DNA of 64,000 nt from contig CAIVKH010000001.1 in the NCBI GenBank assembly GCA_903906425.1, forward strand, positions 1 to 64,000. Reading direction: 5' to 3'. Source of the DNA: an uncultured bacterium. Lineage in GTDB: Bacteria > Verrucomicrobiota > Kiritimatiellia > CAIVKH01. Positions 225-61,150 of the stretch are shown piece by piece; the first letter of the stretch is position 1; each line of letters begins with the position of its first letter. A program made the translations under genes and the position numbers. Under the pieces are notes generated by a model that saw nothing but the letters and a program-made list of their open reading frames with translations, made no database searches and was not told the origin of the DNA.

Positions 225-271
225 TTGCAACCATTGGAAACTCCCGCCACGATCTGTTCCAATCATTGGAA
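225..271. repeat. Paired-palindrome array 1 (2 copies, 32-bp phase; first copy degenerate)
   Basis: ttgcaaccattggaa at 225-239 (2 mismatches) and ttccaatcattggaa at 257-271. Confidence 0.8.
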
Positions 272-2643: not shown

Positions 2644-2690
2644 TTCCAATGATTGGAAAACACGGGTGCGCAAACTTCCAATCATTGGAA
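2644..2690. repeat. Paired-palindrome array 2 (2 copies, 32-bp phase)
   Basis: ttccaatgattggaa 2644-2658 and ttccaatcattggaa 2676-2690; divergent intergenic region. Confidence 0.98.
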
Positions 2691-5890: not shown

Positions 5891-6526
5891 TTACGGCAGT
5901 TCTTCGATCAGGATTTTGCGGTACTGGACTTTCGTGTACGCGCCGCCGTGGATTTGCAGGCCCAATTTTCCGCGCGTCGGAATATTCTGCTCGGTTTCGG
6001 CGTAGTCCGCGGTCTTTCCGCCGTTGAGCCATTCCTCGATGTGGCCTCCTTGTGCGCGAATCTGGTATTCATTCCAATCGCCGGCCGTCACCAGCTTCTT
6101 CTGAAGCCTCTTCGACGGCATTTGAAGAACCTTCTTTCGCCGCATTTCATCATAGAGGCCGCCGTAGTAGTCCTCGCCAATGTCGGCCTGATAGCCGATC
6201 ATTTCGAAGCTGTTTGTGATGCGCTGCGACCAGAATTGCACTCCGCCGTTGACGAAACCATTCGTGCCCTCGAGTTTGAACTGAAGGCGCAGATGAAAAT
6301 TATGAAACTCCTGCGTCGTCACCAGAAAATCATTGCGCGGCTGTAGGCGATTAATCCACCCGGCCACGATCGCGCCGTTCTCGACCCGCCAGAGGTTCGT
6401 ATTGCCCTCCCAGCCCGCGAGCGTCTCGCCATCGAACAATTTCTTCTCGGCCGCGAAACTTTCCAATGGTTGGAAAAATGCCGCCGCCAGAATTCCAATG
6501 ATTGGAAGCACCGTTCTCATTTTCAT
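5891..6526 (-). CDS. Secreted DUF1080 (3-keto-disaccharide hydrolase family) protein; signal peptide encoded by array 3
   Basis: MKMRTVLPIIGILAAAFFQPLESFAAEKKLFDGETLAGWEGNTNLW...VNGGVQFWSQRI; start at cat 6524-6526. Confidence 0.85.
   Translation of the reverse strand: MKMRTVLPIIGILAAAFFQPLESFAAEKKLFDGETLAGWEGNTNLWRVENGAIVAGWINRLQPRNDFLVTTQEFHNFHLRLQFKLEGTNGFVNGGVQFWSQRITNSFEMIGYQADIGEDYYGGLYDEMRRKKVLQMPSKRLQKKLVTAGDWNEYQIRAQGGHIEEWLNGGKTADYAETEQNIPTRGKLGLQIHGGAYTKVQYRKILIEELP
6461..6507. repeat. Paired-palindrome array 3 (2 copies, 32-bp phase), inside signal-peptide coding sequence
   Basis: ttccaatggttggaa 6461-6475 (1 mismatch) and ttccaatgattggaa 6493-6507. Confidence 0.97.
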
Positions 6527-6543: not shown

Positions 6544-7707
6544 TCACTTGATTTCCACGCGCCCGGTCTCTTCCGTCGCGACGACCGCGCCGAGATCCTT
6601 GTCGCCTTCCGAGACGATCCAGACGTGGCCGGGAAACGTGGCCAACAATTCCGAAAGCCTGGGCCGGATGTCTGCATAATGCTTTCGCTTCCCGTCGAAA
6701 TCCAGCCAGTACACGGAAACGACCTTGTCGCGCCGGTTGATGAAATTGATGCCGCTGGCCTTGCCGCTTTCGCGCGGCGATGCCGGCGGAATTTTGTCGG
6801 CCGGCAGCCACGCCAGCGCCTCGCCCTGCTTGTCGAGCCGCGGCGCTTCCTTCGGCCATTGAAAGGGCGCGAACTTTGCGACGTCGAGCCCGGCAAGATG
6901 CGCGCGCTCCGATTCGGGCCGTTTCGCGGGCCGCTGGTAGCGCCATGGCCGTTCGCCATAAACTTCCGTCAGCAACTTCGCGAGGTCGGGATCGTACGGT
7001 TTCAATTTGTCGCGCGTGTCAATCGGCCCGTGGTCGTTGTCGTTCGCGCGGTTCGTGTCGAACCACGACTGCGTGCCCTCGGCCCAATATTCCATGCGGT
7101 TCTGCATCGCATAGGTTCCCTTCCAAAGCCCGTTGGTCTTCGCGTGCTGGTAGGCCGCCTTGAGCCGCCCGTCGAACGTCGGGTCTACGGTGCACATGCC
7201 CATCTCGTGAATCGCGTGGGCGAACTCGTGGATCAAAATATTCTCCTGCCAGTACGGGTCGCCCGGCAGGCACAGCAGATTTTCCTCCGCGCAACTCACG
7301 GCCGGCCGCGCCACCGTCGCGCCGAGGCCGCGCGCGCGGCGGTTCCAGTATTTTGCCGGCGTCAGGTCGCTGTGCTCCGGAATATCCGTCGTCATCTCCG
7401 TCGAAGCCATCACGACGAGGCGTACGTTGTTCTTCGCCATCGCGCGCAGAATTTCCGGCCGGTAATTTCCGATCTCCTGTCGGATCAGATAGGCGGCCTC
7501 CAGCACCGCGAAATCCGAAACCTTCGCCGACGCGACCACCGGGAAGCTCTCGACGAGCACGCACTTCGTGTAATTCGTCGCCAGCTTGAACACCGCGATA
7601 ATTTCCGGGGATGGCCGCGCGATCCGCTCCTGCGCGGAAGTTTCCAATGATTGGAAAACCATCGCGGCGCAACTTCCAATGATTGGAAAAAATCGCTTCA
7701 TGCTCAT
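6544..7707 (-). CDS. Secreted putative zinc metallopeptidase-like protein (HEFAH motif)
   Basis: MSMKRFFPIIGSCAAMVFQSLETSAQ leader; ILIHEFAHAIHEMG (HExxH). ATGA overlap with upstream gene. Confidence 0.7.
   Translation of the reverse strand: MSMKRFFPIIGSCAAMVFQSLETSAQERIARPSPEIIAVFKLATNYTKCVLVESFPVVASAKVSDFAVLEAAYLIRQEIGNYRPEILRAMAKNNVRLVVMASTEMTTDIPEHSDLTPAKYWNRRARGLGATVARPAVSCAEENLLCLPGDPYWQENILIHEFAHAIHEMGMCTVDPTFDGRLKAAYQHAKTNGLWKGTYAMQNRMEYWAEGTQSWFDTNRANDNDHGPIDTRDKLKPYDPDLAKLLTEVYGERPWRYQRPAKRPESERAHLAGLDVAKFAPFQWPKEAPRLDKQGEALAWLPADKIPPASPRESGKASGINFINRRDKVVSVYWLDFDGKRKHYADIRPRLSELLATFPGHVWIVSEGDKDLGAVVATEETGRVEIK
7642..7688. repeat. Paired-palindrome array 4 (2 copies, 32-bp phase), inside signal-peptide coding sequence
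   Basis: ttccaatgattggaa 7642-7656 and 7674-7688. Confidence 0.98.
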
Positions 7708-10964: not shown

Positions 10965-11011
10965 TTCCAATGATTGGAAATTGCCGCGACCGCCTTTTCC
11001 AATCATTGGAA
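10965..11011. repeat. Paired-palindrome array 5 (2 copies, 32-bp phase)
   Basis: ttccaatgattggaa 10965-10979; ttccaatcattggaa 10997-11011; divergent intergenic region. Confidence 0.98.
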
Positions 11012-16777: not shown

Positions 16778-16824
16778 CTCCAATGATTGGAAAATAACTG
16801 ATGCGCAGTTTCCAATGATTGGAA
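16778..16824. repeat. Paired-palindrome array 6 (2 copies, 32-bp phase) inside the ech operon
   Basis: ctccaatgattggaa 16778-16792 (1 mismatch), ttccaatgattggaa 16810-16824. Confidence 0.97.
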
Positions 16825-19252: not shown

Positions 19253-19660
19253 ATGTCTGTCTTCTCCATGACCAAAATAGTTATGAAGGCGATGGTGAGA
19301 CCGCCCGTCACGCACCGCTATCCCTTCGAACCCCGCGTGCACGTACCGCTCACGCGCGGCGAACTCGCCATCGAGATCGAAAAGTGCATCTTCTGCATGC
19401 TCTGCGAAAAGAAATGCCCCACCGGCGCCCTGAAAGTTGACCGCCCCGGCAAAGTCTGGACGATCGACCGCCTCGCCTGCATCACCTGCAACTACTGCGT
19501 CGAAGCCTGCCCGAAAAAATGCCTCGCCCTGACCACCAACCACGCGACGCCAACGGTCACCAAAGAAAAAGAATCCCATCGCCCCGCGCCCAAGCCCGCC
19601 GCCCCGCCGCCCGCAGCCGTAAACGTGGTGTCTGGCGCGCCGCCCGCAGCCACAACGTAA
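19253..19660 (+). CDS. echF: Ech-type 2x[4Fe-4S] ferredoxin subunit with Pro/Ala-rich C-terminal tail
   Basis: CIFCMLCEKKCP and CITCNYCVEACP clusters. Confidence 0.9.
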   Translation: MSVFSMTKIVMKAMVRPPVTHRYPFEPRVHVPLTRGELAIEIEKCIFCMLCEKKCPTGALKVDRPGKVWTIDRLACITCNYCVEACPKKCLALTTNHATPTVTKEKESHRPAPKPAAPPPAAVNVVSGAPPAATT

Positions 19661-19661
19661 T

Positions 19662-19708
19662 TTCCAATCATTGGAAAATCCCGCGGCGCAAACTTCCAAT
19701 GATTGGAA
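19662..19708. repeat. Paired-palindrome array 7 (2 copies, 32-bp phase) filling the 49-bp convergent gap
   Basis: ttccaatcattggaa 19662-19676; ttccaatgattggaa 19694-19708; flanking stops at 19660 (+) and 19710 (-). Confidence 0.98.
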
Positions 19709-22334: not shown

Positions 22335-22414
22335 TTCCAATCATTGGAAAAATCCGATTCGTGAACTTCCAATGATTGGTAGATTCCGTTCGCGTTTTCT
22401 TCCAATCATTGGAA
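22335..22414. repeat. Palindrome array 8 (3 copies, 32/33-bp phase)
   Basis: ttccaatcattggaa 22335-22349; ttccaatgattggta 22367-22381; ttccaatcattggaa 22400-22414. Confidence 0.97.
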
Positions 22415-26411: not shown

Positions 26412-26458
26412 TTCCAATCATTGGAAGTTTTCGCGGCCGGAACTTCCAATCATTGGAA
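26412..26458. repeat. Paired-palindrome array 9 (2 copies, 32-bp phase)
   Basis: ttccaatcattggaa 26412-26426 and 26444-26458; convergent gap. Confidence 0.98.
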
Positions 26459-29526: not shown

Positions 29527-29573
29527 TTCCAATCATTGGAAATCACGGCGGCGCAATTTTCCAATGATTGGAA
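29527..29573. repeat. Paired-palindrome array 10 (2 copies, 32-bp phase)
   Basis: ttccaatcattggaa 29527-29541; ttccaatgattggaa 29559-29573. Confidence 0.98.
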
Positions 29574-33389: not shown

Positions 33390-33437
33390 TTTCAATCATT
33401 GGAAACTTTCGCCATCGAACTTCTCCAATGATTGGAA
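33390..33437. repeat. Paired-palindrome array 11 (2 copies, 33-bp phase, both with 1 mismatch)
   Basis: tttcaatcattggaa 33390-33404; ctccaatgattggaa 33423-33437. Confidence 0.93.
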
Positions 33438-35311: not shown

Positions 35312-35358
35312 TTCCAATCATTGGAAAATGCGGCAGGCTGTTTTTCCAATCATTGGAA
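35312..35358. repeat. Paired-palindrome array 12 (2 copies, 32-bp phase)
   Basis: ttccaatcattggaa 35312-35326 and 35344-35358; divergent gap. Confidence 0.98.
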
Positions 35359-36876: not shown

Positions 36877-36924
36877 TTCCAATCATTGGAAATTTGCGGC
36901 CCCGGTCTTTTCCAACGATTGGAA
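36877..36924. repeat. Paired-palindrome array 13 (2 copies, 33-bp phase)
   Basis: ttccaatcattggaa 36877-36891; ttccaacgattggaa 36910-36924 (1 mismatch). Confidence 0.96.
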
Positions 36925-38607: not shown

Positions 38608-38654
38608 TTCCAATGATTGGAAATTTGCGCGGCCGGTTTTTCCAATCATTGGAA
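38608..38654. repeat. Paired-palindrome array 14 (2 copies, 32-bp phase)
   Basis: ttccaatgattggaa 38608-38622; ttccaatcattggaa 38640-38654; convergent gap. Confidence 0.98.
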
Positions 38655-41834: not shown

Positions 41835-41881
41835 TTCCAATGATTGGAAATTTCCGTGGCCGGATTTTCCAATCATTGGAA
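41835..41881. repeat. Paired-palindrome array 15 (2 copies, 32-bp phase) inside the RND operon
   Basis: ttccaatgattggaa 41835-41849; ttccaatcattggaa 41867-41881. Confidence 0.98.
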
Positions 41882-45957: not shown

Positions 45958-46068
45958 GTCCAATCATTGGAAGAAATTGCCGCGGCAGTTTCCAATGATT
46001 GGAAAAAGCCATCGTGAAATTTGCCAATGATTGGAAATTGCGAAGCCGCATTCTTCCAATGATTGGAA
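45958..46068. repeat. Palindrome array 16 (4 copies, exact 32-bp phase)
   Basis: gtccaatcattggaa 45958-45972; ttccaatgattggaa 45990-46004; tgccaatgattggaa 46022-46036; ttccaatgattggaa 46054-46068. Confidence 0.98.
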
Positions 46069-50933: not shown

Positions 50934-50980
50934 TTCCAATGATTGGAAAAAAGGTTGTCTGTTTATTCCAATGATTGGAA
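50934..50980. repeat. Paired-palindrome array 17 (2 copies, 32-bp phase)
   Basis: ttccaatgattggaa 50934-50948 and 50966-50980; divergent gap. Confidence 0.98.
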
Positions 50981-50996
50981 ACTGCGGTCACAAATC

Positions 50997-52040
50997 ATGA
51001 ACACACGCATTCTTCTTTTCATTTCATTCATCATGGCCGCGTCCGCCGCCCGTGCCGCAGACGGCGAATTCCGCCCGGGCGAAGTCTGGAGCGACACGGA
51101 CGGCACGCCGATCCAGGCGCACAGCGCGGGCATCCTCGTGAGCGGCGGAAAATATTTCTGGTTCGGCGAGGACAAAACTCTCGGCGACCGGAACCGGCGC
51201 GGCATCTCGTGCTACAGCTCGACGGACCTCTACAACTGGAAGAACGAGGGGCTCGCGCTGCCGAAGGAGGCGATGCCGGAAAAGTTCCGCGACTGGGGCA
51301 TCGTCGAGCGGCCGAAGGTCATTTTCAATCCGCACTCGCACCGCTTCGTCATGTGGATGCACCTGGACGATTCCGGCTATCATGCGGCCAGCGCCGGCAT
51401 CGCCACCAGCGACAAGCCGACCGGTCCGTTCACGTTCGCAAAACAGTTGCGCCCGATCGGCGATGACTTCGGTTACAAAGACGACGATCCGAACAAGCAA
51501 AAGCAACTCGGCGGAACTTACCGCGACATGAATCTGTTTGTTGATGACGACGGCAAGGCCTACGCGTTTTATTCGTCGGAAGGAAATGCCACGATGTATG
51601 TCGTCTGCCTCGACGACAATTTCACCGGCCCGGAAACTCCCGCAGTGCCGGGCAAGAATTGGGCGCGGCTGTTTGTCGGAAAATTTCGCGAAGCTCCGGC
51701 GCCATTCAAATTCGGGAAGCGGTACTACCTGATCACCTCCGGCTGCACCGGTTGGTCGCCGAACGCGGCCAACTACGCCGTCGCCGACAACATCCTCGGC
51801 CCGTGGGAAACCAAAACGAATCCATGTGTCGGCCCCGATGCTGAAAAAACTTTTCATGCGCAAAGCACCTTCGTGCTTCCCGTTGCCGGCAAACCCGGCA
51901 GTTTCATTTTCATGGCGGACCGCTGGAACAAGGACAAACTCGAAGACTCCCGCTATGTCTGGCTCCCGCTCATAATCAAGCCGGACCGCTCGTTTACGCT
52001 CGAATGGCGCGACAAATGGGACCTTTCGGTTTTCCAATGA
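50997..52040 (+). CDS. Secreted GH43-like glycoside hydrolase
   Basis: Signal peptide; IQAHSAGILVSGGKYFWFGEDK; YRDMNLFVDDDGKAYAFYSSEGN; APFKFGKRYYLITSGCTGW. Confidence 0.82.
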   Translation: MNTRILLFISFIMAASAARAADGEFRPGEVWSDTDGTPIQAHSAGILVSGGKYFWFGEDKTLGDRNRRGISCYSSTDLYNWKNEGLALPKEAMPEKFRDWGIVERPKVIFNPHSHRFVMWMHLDDSGYHAASAGIATSDKPTGPFTFAKQLRPIGDDFGYKDDDPNKQKQLGGTYRDMNLFVDDDGKAYAFYSSEGNATMYVVCLDDNFTGPETPAVPGKNWARLFVGKFREAPAPFKFGKRYYLITSGCTGWSPNAANYAVADNILGPWETKTNPCVGPDAEKTFHAQSTFVLPVAGKPGSFIFMADRWNKDKLEDSRYVWLPLIIKPDRSFTLEWRDKWDLSVFQ

Positions 52041-52079
52041 TTGGAAAAGTCCGCGCGCGAAAAGCTCCAATGATTGGAA
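52032..52079. repeat. Paired-palindrome array 18 (2 copies, 33-bp phase) overlapping the GH43 stop codon
   Basis: ttccaatgattggaa 52032-52046; ctccaatgattggaa 52065-52079. Confidence 0.97.
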
Positions 52080-52116: not shown

Positions 52117-55056
52117 ATGAAAATGCAATCGTTGCTCTGTCTGTTCTTTGTCACCGCCGCGCTCGCCGTGCGCGGCGATGGATTCGCGCTCACAAAAAAT
52201 TCGCCGGTCTATGAAGCCGCGCCGCAAAAGGCGCTCGACCTCACCGACGAGGTGACGCTCGAAGCGTGGATCTGCCCTGATGCGCAAGCCGGAGGCTGCC
52301 GCATCCTCGACAAGTCAACGCCGGGCGGGCAGGACGGCTACAACCTCGATACGTTTCCCGGAAATGGATTGCGGCTGATTACGGATCGCGGCGGATTCAC
52401 AGCAAAATGCTCGCTGCCCGTCGGCAAGTGGTGCCACGTCGCAGCCGTGTACAGCGCGTCGAAGAAGATTCTCAAGCTGTATCTCGACGGCAAGGAGGTC
52501 GGCAGCGTGAACGGCGGGAATTTTCCGCCGATGAAAATCTCCGCGCATCCGCTCTGCGTCGGTTGCGATCCCGATGGCGGCAATCGCTTCACCGGCAAAA
52601 TCCGCGAGGCTGCAATTTATTCGGTCGCGCTTCCGGAAAATGTCATCGCGCGGCACGCGATCGGGACGGACGCGAAAGATGAAACAGCTCTGATCGCGCG
52701 ATGGAAATTTGACGAGAAGCCCGGCGACACGATTGATCCGGTCGCCGGGAAAATTGCGCTGTCGCGCGCGAAGACGATGCACCGCGCGGGCGGCGCGCAG
52801 CCGGACAACAGCCCTGATCGCGAACTTGTTTATTCCGGCGAAGCGCAGGCACCCGCGGAACCGTTGAGTTTGTGGTATCGCAAATCCGCCGGCGCATGGA
52901 CCGAGGCGCTTCCGATTGGAAACGGCCGTCTCGGCGCGATGGTTTTTGGCCGCGTGAATCAGGAGCGGCTGCAACTGAACGAGGACACGCTCTGGGCGGG
53001 CGGGCCGTACGATCAGAACAACACGAACGCGATTGCGGCGCTGCCGGAAGCGCGTCGGCTCATCAACGAAGGAAAATTCAAGGAGGCAAACAAGCTCGTC
53101 AGCGAAAAGATGATTGCGAATCCGCGCGGGCAGATGCCGTACGAGCCGGTCGGTGATTTGCTGCTCGATTTTGCCGAGACGAAAACCGTCGCGGATTATC
53201 GCCGCGATTTGAATCTCGACACCGCGATCAGCAGCGTGAGCTACACGATTGATGGCGTGAAATATTTGCGCGAAGTTTTTTCGAGCCCGGTTGATCAGGT
53301 CGTCGTCGTCAAGCTGTCCGCAGACAAGCCTGGAAAAATTTCCTTCACCGCCGGAATGAAGACGCCGCAAAAAGCGACGGTCACGGCGGACAAAAATACG
53401 CTCGTGATGGACGGCGTGAACGGCGATGCGATGGGAATTGCGGGCGCGCTGAAATTTCAGTGCCGCACGCTCGTGAAAAATTCCGGCGGAAAAATCGAAA
53501 CCCAAGCCGACAAGGTTTCCGTGACCGGCGCGGACGAAGCGGTGCTGTTGATCGCGGCCGCGACGAGCTACAAGAATTACAAGGATGTCAGCGGCGATCC
53601 CGATGCGCTCTCGAAAAACTACATCGCGAAGGCGGAGAAGAAATCGTTCGACGAACTTCGCGCGGCGCACATCAAGGAACATCAGCGGCTGTTTCGCGCG
53701 TGCTCGCTCGATCTCGGAACCACCGACGCGATGAAGCTGCCGACGGACGAGCGCATCAAGAATTTCGCGACCGGCAACGATCCGAATTTTGCGGTGCTGT
53801 ATTTTCAGTTCGGCCGATATTTGCTCATCAGCTCATCGCGTCCCGGTGGACAGACGGCAAATTTGCAGGGCCTGTGGAACGAGAGCATGGGGCCGCCCTG
53901 GGGCAGCAAATACACGATCAACATCAACACGGAAATGAACTACTGGCCGGTGGACACCGCGAACATCGGCGAGTGCGTCGAGCCACTGGTTTCGATGGTG
54001 CTCGATCTTTCGGAAAGCGGAAAAGAGGCCGCGCGCGTTCACTGGGGCGCGGGCGGTTGGGTCGCGCATCACAACACGGATCTCTGGCGCGCGGCTTCGC
54101 CGATTGACGGGCCGTGGGGACACTGGCCGACGGGCGGCGCGTGGCTGCTGCAGAATTTGTGGGAGCACTATCTTTTCACCGGGGACAAGGAATTCCTGAA
54201 ACGGATTTATCCGGCGATGAAAGGCTCCGCGCAGTTCTTCCTCGATTCGCTCGTTGAAGAGCCGAAACACAAATGGCTCGTCACATCGCCATCGGCCTCG
54301 CCGGAACACTCGAATCCATTCGGCGGCTCCGTGAGCGCTGGACCGACAATGGACCAGCAGATCATCCGTGATCTCTTCGGCAACTGCATCCAGGCGGCGG
54401 CCGATCTTGGCACCGACAAGGAGTTCGCCGACAAAGTTGCCGCGGCCCGCGCGCGACTCGCCCCGAACCAGATCGGCAAGGCCGGGCAGTTGCAGGAATG
54501 GCTCGACGATTGGGACATGGAGGCGCCCGATCAGCATCATCGGCACGTTTCGCATCTCTATGGACTTTTCCCGAGCGCGCAAATTTCGCTGCGCACGACG
54601 CCGGAACTCGCGGCCGCCGTAAAGAAGTCGCTCGAAATCCGCGGCGACATGGCGACGGGTTGGGCCATCGGCTGGCGCATCAACCTCTGGGCGCGGCTCG
54701 GCGACGGCAATCACACCTACGACGTGATCAAGCTGCTCTTCACGCCGGCGCGGACCTATCCGAACATGTTCGACGCGCATCCGCCGTTCCAGATTGACGG
54801 CAACTTTGGCGGTACGTCCGGCATCTGCGAAATGCTCCTGCAATCGCACACGGGCGAAATCGAACTGCTGCCCGCACTGCCATCCGCGTGGCCGAACGGC
54901 AGCGTGAAAGGCCTCCGCGCGCGCGGCGGCTTTACCGTGGACATCGCGTGGAAAGACGGAAAAGTTTCGTCGTACCGCATCGCATCGGAAAAGCCGCGCG
55001 AGGTCAAAATCCGCGTGAACGGCGAAATGAAGACAATCAAGTCCGAAAAGATTTGA
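52117..55056 (+). CDS. Secreted LamG-GH95 protein (alpha-L-fucosidase-like)
   Basis: N-term LamG/concanavalin-like ([22 protein letters not shown]...); GH95 [68 protein letters not shown]. Confidence 0.92.
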
Positions 55057-56126: not shown

Positions 56127-56173
56127 TTCCAATCATTGGAAAAATCCGCGGCGCAAGGCTCCAATGATTGGAA
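56127..56173. repeat. Paired-palindrome array 19 (2 copies, 32-bp phase)
   Basis: ttccaatcattggaa 56127-56141; ctccaatgattggaa 56159-56173; divergent gap upstream of lexA. Confidence 0.97.
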
Positions 56174-57575: not shown

Positions 57576-57623
57576 TTCCAATCATTGGAAGAGACCGGCG
57601 GCGATGTTTTCCAATGATTGGAA
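57576..57623. repeat. Paired-palindrome array 20 (2 copies, 33-bp phase)
   Basis: ttccaatcattggaa 57576-57590; ttccaatgattggaa 57609-57623; convergent gap. Confidence 0.98.
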
Positions 57624-58692: not shown

Positions 58693-61014
58693 TCACGGGC
58701 GAACGCCAACGGGCGGCGCGCCGGACCAGCCAAAGCTGGTAATGTTGGTCGTATTGTTGAGGCTCGACAGAATGTTCCAGGTGCCGGTACTGAGCCGGTA
58801 GGTCGCAAAGTCGGCTTTGCCATCGCCGTCGTAGTCGCCAGAAATCGGAATGGTGGCGTTGCCTCCGAAGACGCGGTCAATGAACACGCCCGTGCTGCCG
58901 GAAACATACCAGTGACCGGCGATGGTGTCGCAGACGGCGATGTCGGCCTTGTGATCGCCGTCGTAGTCGGCGGGAACGGGAGTGAAGCCGAGGCCGCCGA
59001 ATTGCGACTGGGTGAATCCCGCGGAACTGCGGAGGATGTACCACATGCTGTTCGCCGGATCGAACACGGCAACGTCAGCCTTGCCGTCGCCGTCGTAGTC
59101 GGCGGGAACGGGGATCGAAGCCGAGTAACCGAACTGATAATTCGTGTAGCCAAGTGAACTGCGGAAGATGTGCCACAGGCCGGAGGCGGGCTCGAAAACG
59201 CCCAGGTCGGTTTTCCCGTCGCCGTCGTAATCGGCGGGAACGGGAATCGTGCCGCTGTGGCCAAACTGCGTGAAGTGATATCCCGTCTTGGTGCCGAACC
59301 AGTACCACAGGCCGGAGGGAGGATCGTAATAGGCCGCGTCGGTTTTGCCGTCGCCATCGAAATCGGCGACGACGGGAATGACGCCGGAATATCCGAAATG
59401 AAATGTCTGAAAGCCCGCCGTGCTCTTGAAGAGGAACCAGGTGGAGTCCGAGGATTGGTAGGTATTCAGATCGGCTTTGCCGTCGCCGTCATAATCGCGC
59501 TTGGTGGGGAAATTCAGTAGGGTGAGCGGAGCGCCTGGAGTCAGCCACTGCTTCACGATCGGCCATGATTTGTCGAAGCGGCCGAAGTCGTCGAGGCCGC
59601 TTTGATTCCAGCAATAGGATGTTCCGCCATAGAGCTGGCCGAGGAATTGATGAGCGGGATTGAACAGCGGACTGCCGCTGCTGCCTTTTTCCGTCACGCC
59701 GCTATACCATTGCACGCCCCAGAAATTCGGGTCCTGCGCGCCGGACAGGTTTCCAAAGCTGATGCGCGTCCACGATCCGTTCGGATGATGGACGACGGTG
59801 AGCGTATCGCTGTTGGCGGGCGTGGCCGTGGACCAGCCGGCCAGAAAGGTTCCCGCCGGCGGCTGTTGGACGAGGCGCATGAAACTGAAATCATTTGCCT
59901 GCTGATATGTCGCGCCTGCCAGATACGTTCCGCCGCCGGTGGTGGTCGGCACGGTGCTGAGACTCGGCGGCGTTCCATTGCACGCGGACGTTTGATCGAG
60001 CCAGTAGAACTCGACCGTGCTGGCGATGGTCTGGTCGCCGACGCAGTGATTCGCCGTCATGAAATATGTGTTGGCATCCGACGGATCGCTGTCCGCCAGC
60101 AGGCAGCCCGTGCAAAGATATTGGGCGCCCTGATCAACAAGCGTGATTAACGCAACTGCCGCGGCTTCGTTCGACCACGCGGGGTAACAATTCACATCGT
60201 TCTCGCAGAACTGCGCGCCAGCCTGGCTGGACGAAGCGCGCACATAGGTGTGCCCGATCTGCCGCACCGCGAAAGAAACCTCACGCGGCGAAACGCTCGG
60301 CGGCAGCGAGCACTCCAGCGTCAAGTCCGACGCCCAGATGGACTCGGCCCAGAACCGCGGCGCCGCCGCAAGTTCCGCCTTCGAATATGGCCCGCGCCGT
60401 TGCGCCGGATTCCCAGTTTGAAAAACGATGAACTGCGCCCCAGCCGGCACGCTGGCATTTTCGATGGCCACGCGGACAGCCTCCGCTCCACTCGAACTCA
60501 ATCGCAGCGTATAAACCCATCCTCCGTCGCTCGTCGGCATCCACAGCGACGAGCCGTTCACCACAACCGGCGATGGCAGGTCGCGAACAATTCCAATACG
60601 GCGCGCGCGCGGCTGCTTTGCCACGGAGTTCAGGGCGTCTTCGCGCAAGATCGCCGTCAGGTCCGGCGCCGCCAGCACCACGGCCTCGCTCGGTTGAACG
60701 ATCCGCTCGCGCACCGAAACCGGTTCCGGAACCGTGCGCTGCTGCGTTATCGCCGCCGGCCGACCGGCCATGGGCCGCGCCACATTCTGCCAACGCTTCT
60801 GGTGTGCCGTCTCGAACGCGGCCGGCAGCCGCGTCCCATTTGCGAAGGTGTACTCCGTGGATTCGACCCCGTCCGCGCCGGCAACCTGCCGCCCGTTCAC
60901 CACGCAGTTGCTCCCGTTCACAAAAACCGATTCCTGCCACTGGTGAAGCACGCCCGCGGAAGCCGCGGTGGAAAGAGCGATGGCAATGAATGCGGCGAAC
61001 GACACAGTTTTCAT
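58693..61014 (-). CDS. Secreted trypsin-like protease with C-terminal FG-GAP/VCBS-like DYDGDGKAD repeats
   Basis: FMTANHCVGD, NDFSFMRL, GSSGSPLFN triad-like motifs; six or more DYDGDGKAD-type repeats at roughly 47-50 aa intervals. Confidence 0.88.
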   Translation of the reverse strand: MKTVSFAAFIAIALSTAASAGVLHQWQESVFVNGSNCVVNGRQVAGADGVESTEYTFANGTRLPAAFETAHQKRWQNVARPMAGRPAAITQQRTVPEPVSVRERIVQPSEAVVLAAPDLTAILREDALNSVAKQPRARRIGIVRDLPSPVVVNGSSLWMPTSDGGWVYTLRLSSSGAEAVRVAIENASVPAGAQFIVFQTGNPAQRRGPYSKAELAAAPRFWAESIWASDLTLECSLPPSVSPREVSFAVRQIGHTYVRASSSQAGAQFCENDVNCYPAWSNEAAAVALITLVDQGAQYLCTGCLLADSDPSDANTYFMTANHCVGDQTIASTVEFYWLDQTSACNGTPPSLSTVPTTTGGGTYLAGATYQQANDFSFMRLVQQPPAGTFLAGWSTATPANSDTLTVVHHPNGSWTRISFGNLSGAQDPNFWGVQWYSGVTEKGSSGSPLFNPAHQFLGQLYGGTSYCWNQSGLDDFGRFDKSWPIVKQWLTPGAPLTLLNFPTKRDYDGDGKADLNTYQSSDSTWFLFKSTAGFQTFHFGYSGVIPVVADFDGDGKTDAAYYDPPSGLWYWFGTKTGYHFTQFGHSGTIPVPADYDGDGKTDLGVFEPASGLWHIFRSSLGYTNYQFGYSASIPVPADYDGDGKADVAVFDPANSMWYILRSSAGFTQSQFGGLGFTPVPADYDGDHKADIAVCDTIAGHWYVSGSTGVFIDRVFGGNATIPISGDYDGDGKADFATYRLSTGTWNILSSLNNTTNITSFGWSGAPPVGVRP

Positions 61015-61071: not shown

Positions 61072-61150
61072 TTCCAATCACTGGAAAAATCAAATCCTGC
61101 AGCTTCCAATGATTGGAAATTTGCGCGCTCGTCTTTTCCAATGATTGGAA
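61072..61150. repeat. Palindrome array 21 (3 copies, exact 32-bp phase)
   Basis: ttccaatcactggaa 61072-61086 (1 mismatch); ttccaatgattggaa 61104-61118 and 61136-61150. Confidence 0.98.

Follow-up and report, generated by a model that had tools for sequence, protein, structure and literature searches.

Helically phased palindrome arrays between the genes of an uncultured Kiritimatiellia bacterium

Introduction

Recurrent palindromic sites are known from several bacterial systems. Lrp/AsnC (feast/famine) sites are 15-bp palindromes that are bound by phased multiple dimers and wrapped, parS and Noc sites are dispersed palindromes of HTH dimers, the Noc half-site TTTCCC resembling the one described here, and NrdR boxes consist of two 15- to 16-bp palindromes about three helical turns apart. 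REP, BIME and REPIN elements are likewise extragenic palindromes, present in hundreds to thousands of copies and often as doublets. REP/BIME elements of E. coli bind gyrase and IHF (PMC2817692), and the REPIN doublets of SBW25 fitted a random placement model (PMC3116915).

Here, we describe palindrome arrays in the genome of an uncultured member of the Kiritimatiellia, starting from a window of 64,000 nucleotides, the whole stretch of DNA that was analyzed. In contrast to REP/BIME/REPIN elements, the arrays are fully symmetric, with no GTAG/GTGG head in the oriented logo, have a fixed spacing of two or three helical turns, occur in divergent gaps, are accompanied by no framed RAYT gene and are under-dispersed. 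Their centre is not A/T-rich, unlike that of Lrp/AsnC sites, and they differ from parS/Noc sites in that they number thousands, have a 3-bp centre and are paired. NrdR boxes, in turn, have an ACACWATATNT-type sequence and are promoter-bound, with a handful of sites per genome. Literature searches for Kiritimatiell* in combination with palindromes, intergenic repeats, repetitive elements and the motif letters returned no description of such arrays.

Results

The array that was flagged first lies between a GH43 gene and a co-directional GH95 family gene that starts 38 bp past it (Table 1). Its first palindrome, TTCCAATGATTGGAA at 52032-52046, is followed 33 bp farther on by a second copy with one mismatch, CTCCAATGATTGGAA, at 52065-52079. 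The TGA stop of the GH43 ORF (52038-52040; plus-strand frame ...GTT TTC CAA TGA) falls inside the first palindrome, which thereby encodes the C-terminus ...SVFQ*. The initial annotation had concluded that the array supplies the GH43 stop codon. This holds in the literal sense, but gene ends are not generally supplied or truncated by arrays: the GH43 stop is the only one among the 333 gene ends called in 440 kb that lies wholly inside a palindrome, and GH43 homologues in other genomes, where the array is absent, end at most a few residues from the same point (...WNMDIFGG*, ...WNLDAFAK*), so that the GH43 protein is not truncated by the array. The array overlaps the stop at 52038 by accident, as it sits tight against a gene end, and is one coincidental case of a genome-wide system.

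We found 46 palindrome matches (at most 2 mismatches) in the window, where 0.16 are expected by chance; they form 21 arrays (Table 1). The genome, a single draft of 6.66 Mb (93% complete, 5.4% contamination), contains 3,019 exact TCCAATSATTGGA cores and no match to the reversed control pattern, and there is roughly one palindrome pair per second intergenic gap. The window also holds a perfect tandem repeat of a 39-bp unit (1267-1377, 2.8 copies) and a 132-bp tandem repeat (58934-59245, 2.4 copies, 75%) within a minus-strand gene (58693-61014).

Table 1 Palindrome arrays of the window and the two genes adjoining the flagged array.
Feature	Coordinates	Strand	Details
Array	225..271	.	2 palindromes
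Array	2644..2690	.	2 palindromes, divergent gap
Array	6461..6507	.	2 palindromes, co-directional
Array	7642..7688	.	2 palindromes, co-directional
Array	10965..11011	.	2 palindromes, divergent gap
Array	16778..16824	.	2 palindromes, co-directional
Array	19662..19708	.	2 palindromes, convergent gap, 1 bp from either stop
Array	22335..22414	.	3 palindromes, divergent gap
Array	26412..26458	.	2 palindromes, convergent gap
Array	29527..29573	.	2 palindromes, convergent gap
Array	33390..33437	.	2 palindromes, co-directional
Array	35312..35358	.	2 palindromes, divergent gap
Array	36877..36924	.	2 palindromes, co-directional
Array	38608..38654	.	2 palindromes, convergent gap
Array	41835..41881	.	2 palindromes, co-directional, 8 bp from stop 41889
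Array	45958..46068	.	4 palindromes, co-directional, adjoins stop 46070
Array	50934..50980	.	2 palindromes, divergent gap between cstA-like gene and GH43
GH43 gene	50997..52040	+	PF04616, E 2.3e-18; stop in first palindrome of flagged array
Flagged array	52032..52079	.	palindromes 52032-52046 and 52065-52079, spacing 33
GH95 family gene	52117..55056	+	PF22124, E 4.7e-175; co-directional, downstream
Array	56127..56173	.	2 palindromes, divergent gap
Array	57576..57623	.	2 palindromes, convergent gap, 5 bp from stop 57571
Array	61072..61150	.	3 palindromes, co-directional, adjoins smpB stop 61154

The unit is a 15-bp palindrome composed of two half-sites (TTCCAAT in the window genome). Neighbouring palindromes of the window genome are spaced almost only by 31-33 bp and usually form pairs at 32-33 bp. 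Relatives show spacings of 21-22 bp (16 cases) or 30-33 bp (217 cases) with almost nothing between, equivalent to two or three helical turns; in one of them (G113), seven palindromes follow each other at steps of 22, 30, 31, 31, 31 and 22 bp. The spacing is thus quantised by the helical repeat, with peaks at 21-22 and 30-33 bp, as expected of a site to which protein binds cooperatively on double-stranded DNA. The extended logo, CGCAAAY-TTCCAATSATTGGAA-RTTTGCG, is symmetric and has an AT/GC phasing of about 10 bp, the flanks being AT-rich beside the palindrome and GC-rich half a turn farther. A two-orientation EM model barely exceeded the null (IC 73.1 versus 72.0-72.3), and on the little asymmetry of its logo we rejected a directional mobile unit.

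The two half-sites of a palindrome vary separately. In lineages with TTCCAY half-sites, whose sequences were transcribed from the listing of TTCC-N7-GGAA arrays, each half picks C or T independently, and positions 6 and 10 are complementary in 18 of 55 cases compared to 29 expected. Complementary centres between partner palindromes were not enriched in seven of eight genome groups. The order TGA...TCA is commoner in the window genome than TCA...TGA (33 versus 12), which fits an overall dyad. Spacers of this genome are more alike than column-shuffled spacers; we attribute this likeness to half-site dependencies, although it could reflect copying.

In order to describe where arrays lie relative to genes, we used 440 kb of the genome, window included, and called genes with our own codon-usage ORF caller, which is reliable for stops and less so for starts. 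Arrays were present in 14 of 21 convergent, 22 of 36 divergent and 57 of 103 co-directional gaps of at least 80 bp. Overall, about 60% of these gaps carry an array irrespective of gene orientation, almost never two, and about 40% carry none. Among the 179 gaps of at least 60 bp, 98 were occupied with 2 doubles, compared to 55-77 occupied gaps and about 20 doubles under the null. The result was the same for gaps of at least 200 bp, chosen as having room for several arrays: 42 arrays occupied 40 gaps with 2 doubles, whereas the null gave 26-32 occupied gaps and 8.6-9.5 doubles (P<=0.0001). Arrays of other sampled genomes likewise occur in all three gap classes, in numbers too small for separate statistics.

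Arrays in co-directional gaps lie close to the upstream stop (median 31 bp, versus 95 bp to the start and 58 bp under uniform placement), and 40 of 52 are nearer the stop than the start. Stop-to-palindrome distances peak at 0-20 bp and have tailed off near 50 bp, whereas the distances from palindrome to start are broadly distributed. The initial annotation had correctly pointed to arrays next to other stops (stops at 19660, 46070, 61154, 57571 and 41889; array edges at 19662, 46068, 61150, 57576 and 41881), from which it suggested insertion or selection at gene 3' ends, or a role in termination, 3' processing or insulation. Stop-to-array distances, which it proposed to compare with background, are shorter than under uniform placement in co-directional gaps, yet divergent gaps, which have no stop, are equally occupied. 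Because such stop-free gaps also carry arrays, we read the proximity to stops, most simply, as avoidance of the promoter region of the downstream gene. What persists of these proposals is selection at gene boundaries and insulation, with which the single array per gap and the strong under-dispersion agree; insertion of a mobile unit on the REP/RAYT model was not supported, and termination or 3'-end processing fails as a general explanation in view of the occupied divergent gaps, the dyad symmetry, the absence of a one-sided U tract, the helical phasing and the independent half-sites.

Of the phylum's 388 genomes, 38 contain TTCCAA-type pairs, and all of these but one belong to the window's class. 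The more general TTCC-N7-GGAA type was found in 73 genomes, and no genome outside that class reached a high count. Named records with the motif, among the matches listed, are mostly Kiritimatiellae, Lentisphaerae or Verrucomicrobia assemblies, and 2.9 million viral contigs contained only 4 stretches, so viral spread found no support there. The motif is confined mainly to the class Kiritimatiellia. The inner dinucleotide differs between lineages while the architecture is the same: most lineages have AA, G001 from the window genome's family has AT, three genera of f25 have AY (their sister genus has AA) and a single f18 array has GA. Within genera, copy numbers differ strongly, for example between 1 and 62 exact pairs in g3, and hence the function cannot be essential everywhere. 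We saw no replacement palindrome in samples of 43-60 kb from array-poor relatives; G001 has sparse TTCCAT sites.

Three further observations concern individual lineages. Array-poor f24 and f16 genomes (L184-L186, L188, L190) have palindrome pairs inside core genes, such as those for an RNA methyltransferase and a Mur ligase. In the genus of G113 and G127, unlike in the window genome, spacers are common to arrays at many loci (L169 7057-7285), which suggests local copying there. Outside the window's class, G078 alone has a clear array (L193 8081-8272 and 9636-9745; seven copies of TTCCCAnnnTGGGAA and four of TTCCAAnnnTTGGAA at steps of 23-34 bp), within an integrase-bearing, highly repetitive island.

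Discussion

The above results make it probable that the arrays are double-stranded DNA binding sites of a putative sequence-specific dimeric protein, which would bind cooperatively and have a boundary or architectural role between transcription units. That they are sites for such a putative dimeric protein is strongly supported, and the phasing together with the independent half-sites favours a protein on double-stranded DNA over RNA hairpins. Repeats at two or three helical turns would place the dimers on one face of the helix, where cooperative binding of two or more of them may bend or wrap the DNA, as the phasing and the flanks suggest. The resulting complex might act, independently of orientation, as a boundary or as an element of chromosome architecture between transcription units, a role that we propose because there is one array per gap regardless of gene direction. 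Against a pure boundary role stand the sites inside genes of some relatives (e.g. L188 and L190) and the about 40% of gaps of at least 80 bp that are array-free. The boundary model explains neither the genic sites of array-poor relatives nor the copied spacers of one genus.

A different reading, to which we give little credit, is that the arrays are bidirectional terminators or 3'-processing hairpins, in which the palindromes pair in RNA to a stem of roughly 15 bp at gene 3' ends. Folding energies are indeed -19 to -31 kcal/mol, with z scores as low as -5.6 for paired arrays, but any tandem palindrome folds in this way, and the fold thus adds no evidence of its own. In co-directional gaps, arrays adjoin stops, and canonical terminators are rarer at ends with an array (5/73) than at ends without (14/88), which is a weak tendency only; the similar occupancy of divergent gaps shows that arrays are not confined to 3' ends. 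Furthermore, the flank logo has no one-sided T run as a U tract after the stem, partner centres are not selected for complementarity, positions 6 and 10 are less complementary than independence predicts, and a hairpin needs no phasing at 21-22 and 31-32 bp. Rfam families had no match in the window. Intrinsic-terminator-like sites were found at only 19 of 161 gene ends in the 440 kb, and most termination must therefore use another route.

We consider it similarly improbable that a Y1 (RAYT-type) transposase spread the arrays as a mobile family of the REP/REPIN kind, tolerated only in intergenic space. Such a family would fit the thousands of extragenic palindromes, the preference for doublets, the patchy copy number within genera and the spacers shared across loci in G113 and G127, and Y1_Tnp genes are present in 35 of 37 array-rich compared to 26 of 37 array-free genomes. 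However, none of 20 Y1 genes examined in array-bearing genomes is framed by the palindrome (TTCC-N7-GGAA), many having their own unrelated flanking repeats, and both Y1 genes that lie within the sampled part of the window genome lack the palindrome on at least one side. Two array-rich genomes (G021 and G168, 88-91% complete) have no Y1_Tnp match at all, and the richest genomes have only 2-3. The symmetric, headless unit also speaks against this origin, as does the under-dispersion of array copies in comparison with the random-placement fit of REPIN doublets in SBW25 (PMC3116915). Y1 genes with flanking repeats of their own, of AGCCC...GGGCT or GGGGTCAG types, occur in G174, G200, G330, G023 and others (L255-L264); these are apparently REP-like systems separate from the arrays.

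Cooperative repressors typically bind palindromic half-sites that lie integral helical turns apart, and the arrays might accordingly be thought of as regulatory operators, promoter-proximal sites of a global transcription factor. Divergent-gap arrays lie near promoters and some arrays end 10-17 bp ahead of a start codon; convergent gaps, which are promoter-free, nevertheless carry arrays as often, the neighbouring genes have no common function, and well over a thousand arrays go far beyond a regulon. We thus regard operators as unlikely. When the genes adjoining 245 arrays were clustered, the clusters were either large families (sulfatases, response regulators) or translated arrays. In array-poor genomes, the genes next to the few arrays belong to no common family that would hint at autoregulation. 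A DNA-uptake recognition sequence or another genome-wide tag (DUS/USS-like) is very hard to credit: uptake sequences reach copy numbers of the same order, but the arrays are paired, phased and nearly excluded from genes, which to our knowledge are not features of uptake sequences.

Known families were considered as candidates for the putative binding protein. An Lrp/AsnC gene is present in 37 of 37 array genomes but also in 30 of 37 array-free ones and is thus not discriminating, and an alignment of the Lrp/AsnC HTH gave no clear covariation with AA and AY sites. ParB/Noc-type binding was rejected, since array-bearing genomes have at most one HTH_ParB match each and hence no extra ParB-family paralogue. 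NrdR was likewise set aside, as the array half-site TTCCAAT does not match its consensus.

Returning to protein-bound boundaries, we tentatively suggest as a possible extension that the Kiritimatiellia have a class-specific chromosome-partition system, in which a putative protein, sitting on phased pairs in most inter-operon gaps, bounds each transcription unit and the specificities of protein and site co-evolve (TTCCAA, TTCCAT, TTCCAY, TTCCGA). If the boundary reading is true, the bacterium would mark most borders of its transcription units with a single kind of protein site that has no orientation, in effect a genome-scale counterpart of insulators in bacteria, and the natural variants in site specificity could be used to find the protein by co-variation. 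Even with another role, a 15-bp site that recurs about 3,000 times in quantised pairs and is shared by many uncultured genomes has apparently not been described before. The arrays are also of practical use as a signature in binning and in the recognition of false ORFs; when translated, they give FSNDWKK/FQSLEK-like runs.
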